IMG/VR virus record: IMGVR_UViG_3300042445_000468
Location: 1 to 31,478 of that record
Source: a virus
DNA length: 31,478 bases
Reading direction: 5' to 3' (one strand)
The stretch's first letter is position 1, and every line of letters begins with the position of its first letter. The notes below the pieces were generated by a model that saw only the letters and a list, made by a program, of their open reading frames with translations, had not been told where the DNA came from and ran no database searches. Both the position numbers and the translations under genes were made by a program. Below, piece after piece: positions 8,178-22,416 of the stretch.

Positions 8178-8539
8178 CAAAAGAGGAAATTATTAAAGAG
8201 CTGCAACATAGAGCGACCCAGAAATATCTAATTTATCTGGCGCTACAAGAAATCATGTTGGATAATTACGAGGATTGTAAGTTTCTCAAAGATTACGATT
8301 TCTACATTACGACCAAGCATAAAAACCTAATTGCAGACCTAAAACGAAACGCTACAAAGGCTTTTAGATTTCTGGAGGGATACGATGATGGAGAGAAAAC
8401 AATAAAGCAATTCCACGAATTCGTTACCTTATTTGAGCGCTTACACGAATCAATCGACCAAGGCGGCTCGTTGTTTCACGATTGCCTAAATGCCATTGAA
8501 CAAATACTAAACGACCATGAGAGCGCCAAATCTAACTGA
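8174..8539 (+). CDS. Hypothetical helical protein
   Basis: A 121-residue, predominantly helical, charged protein with segments KYLIYLALQEIMLDNYEDCK and LIADLKRNATKAFRFLEGY, and a C-terminal helix rich in Glu and His. No membrane segment or known motif. It is coupled by ATGA to the nuclease-like gene upstream and overlaps the following HTH gene by 23 bases in another frame. Confidence 0.75.
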   Translation: MTKEEIIKELQHRATQKYLIYLALQEIMLDNYEDCKFLKDYDFYITTKHKNLIADLKRNATKAFRFLEGYDDGEKTIKQFHEFVTLFERLHESIDQGGSLFHDCLNAIEQILNDHESAKSN

Positions 8540-8666
8540 TTACCAGAAAGAGCTAATCTTCGAGAAATGGCAAGACCGAAAATCAATTAAAGTAATTGCA
8601 ATTGAAATCGGACGGTCTTATTCTTGCGTTTATTTTCACCTAAAGAGCCGTTGTTTAGTTGGTTAA
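8517..8666 (+). CDS. Small HTH protein
   Basis: A 49-residue protein consisting almost only of a helix-turn-helix: LTDYQKELIFEKWQDRKS, IKVIAIEIGRSYSCVYFHL, then a short end. It overlaps the previous gene by 23 bases and is the last gene before the non-coding gap at 8667-8793. It could bind the nearby promoter or origin region; this is inferred from position. Confidence 0.6.
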   Translation: MRAPNLTDYQKELIFEKWQDRKSIKVIAIEIGRSYSCVYFHLKSRCLVG

Positions 8667-8686
8667 ATAGAAAAGAGTTATATTTA
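8659..8686 (+). promoter_or_regulatory. Promoter TTG-N17-TATATTTA before the non-coding RNA
   Basis: TTG at 8659-8661, exactly 17 bases, then TATATTTA at 8679-8686. This matches the TTG-N17-TATATTTG architecture of the other promoters here apart from the last base. A start of transcription about 7 bases downstream (near 8693) would give an RNA that begins in the non-coding gap. Confidence 0.5.
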
Positions 8687-8692
8687 CTTATT

Positions 8693-8784
8693 GAATGTAA
8701 CGTTTAAGAGGTCGGAGCCTTAGACGTTTCATAGGTGAAAACCAACCCAGCCCCATCGTCTCCGACCCGATTGGGGCTTTTTTA
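8693..8784 (+). ncRNA. Candidate structured small RNA or attenuator leader
   Basis: The gap between the HTH gene and the initiator gene holds no usable ORF; the only ATG (8695) is followed at once by TAA. Three structural elements are visible. GGTCGGAG at 8710-8717 is fully complementary to CTCCGACC at 8760-8767. TTTCA-TAGG-TGAAA (8728-8739 region) can form a small hairpin. CTCCGACC lies in the loop of the terminator hairpin at 8749-8778. The 5' segment can therefore pair with the terminator loop, either as a pseudoknot or as an alternative pairing. With the promoter upstream and the T tract at 8778-8783, a ~90-base RNA is predicted. Confidence 0.5.
8749..8784 (+). terminator. Rho-independent terminator with loop complementary to upstream RNA
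   Basis: AGCCCCATCG pairs with CGATTGGGGCT (one bulged T), giving a 10-bp stem with a 9-base loop TCTCCGACC, followed by a T6 tract, A and more T. It ends 10 bases before the initiator ATG, so it would terminate upstream transcription or regulate entry into the replication genes. Confidence 0.8.
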
Positions 8785-8793
8785 TTTTCTATT

Positions 8794-9507
8794 ATGAGCG
8801 GATGGATTAAGGTACACAGGCAATTATCAAACCATTGGATATGGGAGAAACCCGAGTATCTCAAGTGGTGGATGGATATTTTAATGCAAGCCAACATAGA
8901 ACCAAAAAAGGTTTTAATTAAAGGCCAGCTAATTGAGGTCGGTAGAGGTGAGGTAATTTATTCTTATGAAACTTGGGCTAATCGCTGGAAAATTAACAAG
9001 TCTAAGGTTTTGAGGTTTTTAAAAATGCTGGAGAAAGATTCGATGATTGTGTTAAAAAGCGAAACGGTTACGACACGGCTAAGTATCTGTAAATATGATA
9101 CTTACCAAGGTGAGCGAAACGATAGTGAAACGCAAGTGAAACGCACGCGAAACGATAGTGAAACGCAAGTGAAACCAACTAAAGAAGTTAAAGAATTAGA
9201 GAATGTAATAAGTAAAGAAACGTTTCTATCTCTGGTAGAAATAGGCGAAGAGATGGCAAAGGAAAAGCCAATGCATAGACCATACTTTAACAGAATGCAA
9301 GAGCTTTACAACCTAGACGATAAGACGGTAAAGGAATCGTTTAGAAAGTGGAAAATATTGAAAGAAGGCGAAACCATGACAATAAGCAAAGCCCAAAACT
9401 CATTTAACCTTTACTTGAAAAATAGTTTAAGTACTGGCTACAATGAAAGCAAGGGAACGGAAACGCCTAAGTACCCAAAATCAACAATACAAGACAATTG
9501 GTGGTAA
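8794..9507 (+). CDS. Replication initiator-like winged-helix protein
   Basis: A 237-residue protein with the layout of phage replication proteins of the O/DnaD type. The N-terminal part is GWIKVHRQLSNHWIW, then PEYLKWWMDILMQAN, IEVGRGEVIYSYETWANRW and a winged helix ending in LEKDSMIV and ICKYDTYQG. Residues ~107-128 are two tandem copies of an 11-residue unit (RNDSETQVK core) encoded by an iteron array. The C-terminal part is helical and ends DNWW. Such proteins bind origin repeats with the N-terminal domain and recruit the helicase with the C-terminal domain. The helicase-like ATPase two genes downstream supports this. Confidence 0.8.
   Translation: MSGWIKVHRQLSNHWIWEKPEYLKWWMDILMQANIEPKKVLIKGQLIEVGRGEVIYSYETWANRWKINKSKVLRFLKMLEKDSMIVLKSETVTTRLSICKYDTYQGERNDSETQVKRTRNDSETQVKPTKEVKELENVISKETFLSLVEIGEEMAKEKPMHRPYFNRMQELYNLDDKTVKESFRKWKILKEGETMTISKAQNSFNLYLKNSLSTGYNESKGTETPKYPKSTIQDNWW
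9116..9176. repeat. Iteron array, six GAAAC(G/C) units with 11-bp period: candidate replication origin
   Basis: GAAACG starts at 9116, 9127, 9138, 9149 and 9160, and GAAACC at 9171, each exactly 11 bases apart. A further GAAACG at 9061 is 55 bases (5 x 11) upstream, in phase. The array consists of two 33-base direct repeats within the initiator gene. Placement inside the initiator gene is as in lambda O. Confidence 0.6.
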
Positions 9508-21629: not shown

Positions 21630-21952
21630 TAAACTTTGGCAAATACGACCAGAAAGTTGAGTTTATATCCTTTCAGACAATTAGCGACGGCGCTGGAGGC
21701 ACAATTGTAAGCCCAACAACGCTTTTAAGTACGTTCGCGTCAGTTAAGCAGACTAGAGGAAATAACGCCTTAGAATCTGGGGAAATGGTATTGCCGAACA
21801 CTTACCAAATTGCAATCCAGTATCGAGCGTCTTTTGTCCCAAGCGAGATTTACCAAGTACTTTATCGAACAAGATATTACAAGATTACTGGCGTGCAATT
21901 GAACGACGAGAGAATGCACAAAGAGTACATTATTAACATGGTTGGAGTGTAA
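21626..21952 (+). CDS. Head closure / stopper protein (SPP1 gp16-like)
   Basis: A 108-residue beta-barrel type protein: INFGKYDQKVEFISFQ, DGAGGTIVSPTTLLSTFASV, a variable loop, YQIAIQYRASF and YKITGVQLNDER with a C-terminal YIINMVGV. This pattern is that of head-tail joining proteins which plug the connector after packaging. It shares one base with the next gene. Length fits the family (about 110). Confidence 0.88.
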   Translation: MINFGKYDQKVEFISFQTISDGAGGTIVSPTTLLSTFASVKQTRGNNALESGEMVLPNTYQIAIQYRASFVPSEIYQVLYRTRYYKITGVQLNDERMHKEYIINMVGV

Positions 21953-22416
21953 TGGCGGTTACGGTAAAAGGATTGGATGCGGCTTTAAAAGACTTGGACA
22001 AGCAAGAGCAAGTTGTCATCGATGCCGTTAAAGATATTTTAGCAAGTACTGCAACCGATATTGAAATAGAGGCCATTAGAAACGCTCCTAGTAACTGGGA
22101 AGGCCAGCCTTTAAACATTAAGCAAAGGATTGATAAAGTAGCTGAAAATAATGGTTTAGGTTGGCGCGTAGGTGTTCAATCTGGCGACCCAGTCTTTGAG
22201 ATTGAGGCTTGGTTGGAGTTTGGAACTGGACTAAGCGCGAGAGAGATTTTAAGCAATCCACAATACACGCAAGAGGTTCGCGACATTGCCAGACGCTTTT
22301 ACAGAAACGGACGCGGTCGAATTGTTGGCCAGCCTTACCTTATGCCAGCTTTCTTTAGGAATACGGCTAATTTAGTTACTGATATTGAAAACGAGATAAA
22401 CAAAGATTTAGGATGA
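21952..22416 (+). CDS. Tail completion protein, HK97 gp10-like
   Basis: A 154-residue protein with VTVKGLDAALKDLDKQEQV, a WLEFGTG motif near residue 87 and a C-terminal GQPYLMPAFFR, all hallmarks of the HK97 gp10 family that links the connector to the tail terminator. It overlaps the next gene by 4 bases. Family call is strong because WLEFGTG and PYLMPAF occur at the expected spacing. Confidence 0.9.
   Translation: MAVTVKGLDAALKDLDKQEQVVIDAVKDILASTATDIEIEAIRNAPSNWEGQPLNIKQRIDKVAENNGLGWRVGVQSGDPVFEIEAWLEFGTGLSAREILSNPQYTQEVRDIARRFYRNGRGRIVGQPYLMPAFFRNTANLVTDIENEINKDLG

Follow-up and report, generated by a model that had tools for sequence, protein, structure and literature searches.

In plasmid ColE1, RNAI and RNAII are two RNAs from opposite strands that meet through kissing loops of about seven bases, and these kissing loops are bound by the protein Rom. 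A c4 antisense RNA occurs in phages P1 and P7 (Rfam RF01695; Citron and Schuster 1990, cited in PMC8201110). It shares its strand and its promoter with its target, pairs near the downstream translation start and is cut out of a longer transcript; in phage P1 the target is an antirepressor, and we know of no kissing terminator loop in c4. For plasmid replication genes, the pT181-type attenuator works through a separate antisense RNA bound to an antiterminator hairpin (PMC4878617), and Rli51, the leader of the Listeria mpl gene, is a terminator/antiterminator switch bound by another sRNA (PMC11394854).

The locus presented here lies in a virus record of 31,478 bases that was analysed over its whole length (the window). 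Judged from its letters and from those of its relatives, it very probably holds a genuine RNA element, not described before, that controls early genes of phages. Among the loci collected for comparison, a different virus record (L301, IMGVR_UViG_3300036985_000856) also has 31,478 bases; its similarity to the window is only partial and the shared length is probably a coincidence.

Structure of the RNA in the window

The RNA occupies a gap of 127 bp (8667-8793) between an HTH ORF of 49 amino acids (8517-8666) and a DnaD-like replication gene. The initial annotation had described an ORF-free gap directly before an initiator gene. Such a gap is present, though its true start is shifted to 8667 by the HTH ORF, and the adjoining gene is indeed of the replication kind by its match to phrog_2514; a Pfam search with its protein gave no match. 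The features are:

8659-8686, plus strand: candidate promoter, TTG-N17-TATATTTA (Bacteroidota-type TTG / TAnnTTTG), from sequence inspection and conservation of the box
8693-8783, plus strand: predicted terminated RNA of about 90 nt with a putative start, from the folding z and the distance to the T-run in relatives
8699-8728, plus strand: hairpin P1, a 10-bp stem (8699-8708/8719-8728) with a 10-nt loop (8709-8718, AGGTCGGAGC), from folding and compensated stem changes in relatives
8710-8717, plus strand: kissing arm L1, GGTCGGAG, perfect complement of 8760-8767, covarying in relatives
8734-8743, plus strand: small hairpin P2 (GGT/ACC) within the linker, from folding, weak in the window
8749-8783, plus strand: intrinsic terminator P3 with a 9-nt loop (8759-8767) and a T-run (8778-8783), -14.3 kcal/mol
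8760-8767, plus strand: kissing arm L3 in the terminator loop, CTCCGACC, complement of L1, covarying in relatives
8794-9507, plus strand: gene for a DnaD-like helicase loader / replication initiator (phrog_2514, E 5e-31)

The TTG of the promoter (8659-8661) is followed by the N17 spacer and by the second element at 8679-8686, so that the letters and positions of the promoter-like box proposed earlier are exact; the TTG, however, overlaps the last codons of the upstream HTH ORF and is not clearly conserved. A TATATTTG-like box is retained in nearly all relatives, in which it stands 73-91 nt ahead of the T-run. We take the TAnnTTTG box to be the Bacteroidota promoter type, and the failure of a sigma-70 promoter scan to find any promoter is expected for a promoter of this kind. 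The only ATG in the RNA is, as had been noted, a start-stop (ATG TAA at 8695-8700).

With the kiss left out of account, the 98-nt RNA outdid all 200 shuffles in folding (z -2.97). The P3 stem pairs 8749-8758 with 8768-8770 and 8772-8778. A 5′ segment complementary to the terminator loop had been proposed; the two 8-mers are exact complements, but the 5′ one is not free, being held in the loop of P1. According to the folding model, the contact between L1 and L3 is a loop-loop kiss of two hairpins that pair with each other only through their loops, and the L1-L3 duplex is calculated at -14.0 kcal/mol. When the loop letters were shuffled, at least 8 complementary bases arose in 254 of 200,000 trials (about 0.13%).

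P2 is longer in relatives (AGGTTA/TAACCT). An 18-nt inverted repeat, 83% complementary, links the P2 region of the window (8732-8749) to the end of the upstream HTH ORF (8625-8642), and P2 could pair with the upstream gene in a read-in transcript. The iterons that had been reported downstream of the RNA are found about 310 bases after it, within the replication gene, as 11-bp units around GCGAAACGATA/GTGAAACGCAA with 11-bp spacing (9103-9175).

Conservation and covariation of the kissing loops

Relatives were fetched through the replication protein alone (L001-L036; upstream DNA present, n = 35), so that the selection of loci was blind to the RNA. In all 35, the terminator loop as defined by folding is perfectly matched by 7 or more complementary nucleotides in the 5′ part. 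Within the close group the kiss occurs in several co-varying versions (GTCGGAG/CTCCGAC, GTAGGAG/CTCCTAC, GTGAGAG/CTCTCAC, GTGGAAG/CTTCCAC and GTGGTAG/CTACCAC), and the compensated pairs include GGTAGGAG/CTCCTACC, GTGGAAG/CTTCCAC, GGTGAGAG/CTCTCACC and GGTGGTAG/CTACCACC. A clean double compensation on the same backbone, from GTCGGAG/CTCCGAC to GTCGCAG/CTGCGAC, is found in L033, where the RNA stands before an inserted gene that has replaced the usual gene behind it. Compensated changes are also visible in the P1 stem, and in dozens of other phages the kiss is retained with its letters altered. For the window's type a joint count of such changes was dropped, the automatic alignment shifting loops of unequal length.

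The initial annotation had proposed a structured RNA whose 5′ segment pairs at long range with the terminator loop, and had fixed in advance compensatory changes between 8710-8717 and 8760-8767 as the decisive test. Such changes are present in the relatives, in the several versions given above. Comparative evidence of this kind makes it almost certain that the element is a real, conserved structured RNA with kissing loops.

Further types and database searches

A terminator-side pattern with two loop positions left free, together with a P1-side pattern, found the same RNA before other genes. Our own finder, which looks for the box, a P1 whose loop contains a k-mer complementary to the terminator loop, and the T-run, returned 249 matches in 5.4 Mb of fetched DNA versus 75 in control DNA (10.9 Mb, reversed or shuffled), a ratio that is not a genome-wide rate because the fetched DNA is enriched for relatives; its low-scoring matches include chance ones. 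Two further types share the architecture and have no clear sequence similarity to the window's type. RNAs of the GCAG type have a short P1, often AGGT/ACCT, whose loop of 6-9 nt ends with GCAG; beneath the kissing hairpin of the terminator lies an AGUA/GAA internal loop. In the third type, P1 resembles GGTTC/GAACC and the internal loop is UGAA/GGA. Among 17 sequences of the third type, two-sided changes occur in 23 of 28 pairs and in 6 of the 8 pairs of the kissing helix; none of 500 shuffles reached any of the measures, and slid controls remained far below.

Most of the third-type sequences came from the finder, which demands complementarity, and two less biased tests therefore weigh more. 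A covariance model built without the kiss retrieved four members outside its training set, all four of which bear the kiss, one of them with a G-U pair. For the GCAG type, a pattern restricted to the terminator side was accompanied by a matching 5′ loop in 37 of 37 cases with the box and the T-run and in 1 of 53 without the T-run. A single case on the contig shared by L060 and L122 (L060 from position 1168 onward) may be a further type; there the same layout, with loop GTTCCACGC and terminator loop GCGTGGAAC behind a TAAATTTG box, precedes a gene distantly related to the replication gene. Six contigs (L197, L212, L239, L243, L306 and L343) have two RNAs each, which differ in type and loop letters and stand before different genes. 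No second RNA was found within the window, where model R1 gave no match and R2 one at chance level.

Rfam 15 gave no match at threshold for the window, for 16 loci or for 6 loci, and the best hit of a permissive Rfam scan of 8600-8850 was suhB, with 16.5 bits versus a threshold of 41 (E 0.37). The window's type shows no large, conserved unpaired core of the sort that might bind a riboswitch ligand; the other types have small conserved internal loops. Comparison of the gap with cultured phages by DNA similarity yielded no convincing counterpart of the window's type; Tenacibaculum phage Gundel_1, the one cultured carrier found, has a different type, at positions 33901-33999 of its record. Plasmids searched with a GCAG-type query gave nothing credible, and models R1 and R2 had no matches in 395 bacterial genomes of one class, a search that ran without a positive control and shows little. 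We found no description of the architecture in the literature compared, including passages of two large RNA-motif papers (PMC2864571 and PMC8040213); a 2017 paper with 224 motifs lies outside this comparison.

Position before early genes

In 100 of 105 non-identical finder matches, the T-run is followed on the same strand by an ORF whose ATG lies 7-30 nt from the T-run's start (median 16); the remaining five look like chance matches. In the window the ATG of the replication gene stands 16 nt past this point. A distance of 7-30 nt leaves no space for a promoter, and the next gene must therefore be transcribed through the terminator. The RNA is thus likely to be the leader of the gene that follows. 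These 100 loci have the anatomy, and the anatomy only, of a transcription attenuator, namely an intrinsic terminator within the leader of a gene. The attenuator role that had been suggested is, on sequence grounds, compatible with this position before the start codon.

The proteins encoded downstream comprise DnaD-like loaders, replication proteins with Lin1244_N and HTH_36 matches, an O-like initiator, a BT4734/PriCT primase, DUF6291 proteins, NUMOD4-HNH endonucleases and an HSDR_N-like protein; in Gundel_1 the RNA precedes an AntA/KilAC antirepressor gene. Since these proteins belong to unrelated families, the RNA is not tied to one initiator protein, and the element is not specific to replication entry, given the same architecture before HNH endonuclease, antirepressor and other genes. 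Kissing-loop leaders precede homing-type HNH (NUMOD4) genes in L306 and L343 (minus strand), L134, L166 and L206, which suggests control of mobile genes too. The carriers are presumably phages of Bacteroidota, to judge from their TAnnTTTG box and from one carrier that infects Tenacibaculum. A protein of the structural region (window 21952-22413) was present in only 2 of 22 phages (G002-G422) that mostly share the window's replication region or RNA architecture, indicating that replication and structural modules are exchanged.

Many GCAG-type RNAs have a third complementary site, an NNGCAG copy of the P1 loop between the T-run and the ATG. The copies matched the loop of their own RNA in 23 of 23 cases, in six versions (GT, AA, AT, AG, GA or TT before GCAG), and permutation of the loops among the RNAs gave a mean of 4.1 and a maximum of 11 matches (20,000 trials); the permutation overstates independence because the sequences are related, and the six separate versions remain. 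ATGTTGCAGATG is also found in many RNAs with the loop GTTGCAG. In L099 the third copy does not match its own loop, and many GCAG-type RNAs are without a copy. By complementarity, the GCAG-type terminator loop has two alternative pairing partners, P1 and the ribosome-binding region. In the window's type there is no third copy before the ATG, the longest shared stretch in the window's RNA being 4 nt.

A search for L1-like sites across the window gave no convincing target in trans. One candidate, GGTTGGAG (window 21940-21955, before the ATG at 21952), was rejected, its letters being codons of the conserved Met-Val-Gly-Val end of the preceding gene; the site reads exactly GGTCGGAG in two relatives and had no visible link to the RNA in the homologues inspected. 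Another, GAGGTCGG at codons 49-51 of the replication gene, was likewise rejected, as it is not retained in L001, L004 and other relatives.

Possible mechanisms

The mechanism that we propose tentatively, and rate at a little short of an even chance, is a leader attenuator that keeps expression of the following gene low. Polymerase starting from the box promoter would mostly stop at P3 and free a stable RNA of about 90 nt, with a minority reading through into the replication gene, and the kissing loops would set the balance between termination and read-through. Each released RNA carries both loops, so pairing in trans with nascent or read-through copies is possible, which would amount to negative feedback on the replication gene; by analogy, more genomes would mean more small RNA and less initiator. 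Translation might also be blocked in the GCAG type, by the terminator loop acting on the ribosome-binding region as an antisense from the same strand. The third site being absent from the window's type, only the transcriptional part would apply there. A wider reading, doubtful at present, would see in these elements self-antisense leader RNAs of Bacteroidota phages, in which one strand and one promoter give both the early-gene message and a small RNA for copy-number control; the terminator loop may then recognise the leader of its own message and, in one type, the ribosome-binding site as well.

Other explanations bear on the same observations. An unlikely one is that a protein of phage or host recognises the shape of the kissing complex, whatever its letters, and permits or blocks read-through, much as Rom binds the kissing loops of RNAI and RNAII. 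In line with this reading, the architecture is retained while the loop letters drift, and the non-Watson-Crick internal loops of two types (AGUA/GAA and UGAA/GGA) resemble protein or tertiary contact sites; the window's type, however, has neither of these loops, and in an unsystematic look we noticed no gene common to all carriers. Its own promoter box, compact stable fold and terminator would equally suit a small RNA acting in trans on other targets, placed before genes by tight packing only, but the same-strand ATG 7-30 nt behind 100 of 105 matches and the lack of a convincing L1-like target within the window make this quite improbable. We consider it about as improbable that P3 is a reinforced terminator without regulation, in which the kiss stabilises the RNA end or sharpens the termination of upstream transcription. 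Both RNA ends lie in hairpins and the kiss is compatible with a closed terminator, in agreement with such a role, yet the element has its own promoter box directly upstream, no other promoter would fit before the next gene, and a covarying third copy in one type implies more than stability.

There is only a slim chance that the element is a classical terminator/antiterminator switch whose terminator cannot form once L1 and L3 are paired. The order of the elements would allow it, as L3 emerges before the 3′ arm of P3 and L1 could take L3 first. However, in the window the complementary stretch does not extend past the edges of the loops, in none of the types does it reach appreciably beyond them, and no alternative pairing with the arms of P3 was seen. 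Because the pairing stays inside the loops, P1, the kiss and a closed P3 can coexist, which counts against a plain switch and against the alternative pairing in competition with the terminator that the initial annotation had considered. Least probable by far is a DNA element, such as an origin hairpin or operator repeats, in place of an RNA; there are iterons nearby in the window and the motif recurs as direct and inverted copies, but P1 and P3 covary as stems, the promoter box and the T-run are retained, and the element is also found before HNH and antirepressor genes.

Comparison with known systems

This element adds a common and apparently undescribed class of structured RNA to Bacteroidota phages, whose RNA biology is thinly studied. 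Its loop letters drift while its shape is retained and different replication genes stand alongside, so that it looks like a portable control module. The loops occur as natural compensated pairs, which makes the mechanism directly testable by natural swaps.

Like RNAI and RNAII of ColE1, it would link an RNA to replication control through kissing loops of about seven bases, but here there is one RNA from one strand. As regards c4, many GCAG-type RNAs have a covarying same-strand complementarity to the downstream start region (in the window's RNA the longest shared stretch is 4 nt), and the Gundel_1 RNA precedes an antirepressor gene. Unlike c4, the RNA would have its end made by a terminator, the window's RNA has no third site, and the RF01695 model was matched neither by the window nor by the loci scanned. 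With the pT181-type attenuator it shares a leader before a replication gene, an intrinsic terminator and a loop-loop contact (PMC4878617); it differs in that both loops are in one RNA, with complementarity within one strand and confined to the loops, and no antiterminator helix involving the 5′ terminator arm was seen. In Rli51, premature termination of a leader frees a small RNA that also acts in trans (PMC11394854), as may happen here, although Rli51 is bacterial and without a kissing terminator loop (PMC11394854). If the proposed mechanism is true, one strand encodes a message plus its own antisense regulator. On the wider reading, copy-number control would be built into these phages through loop codes specific to each phage, much as in plasmid incompatibility but without a counter-transcript.
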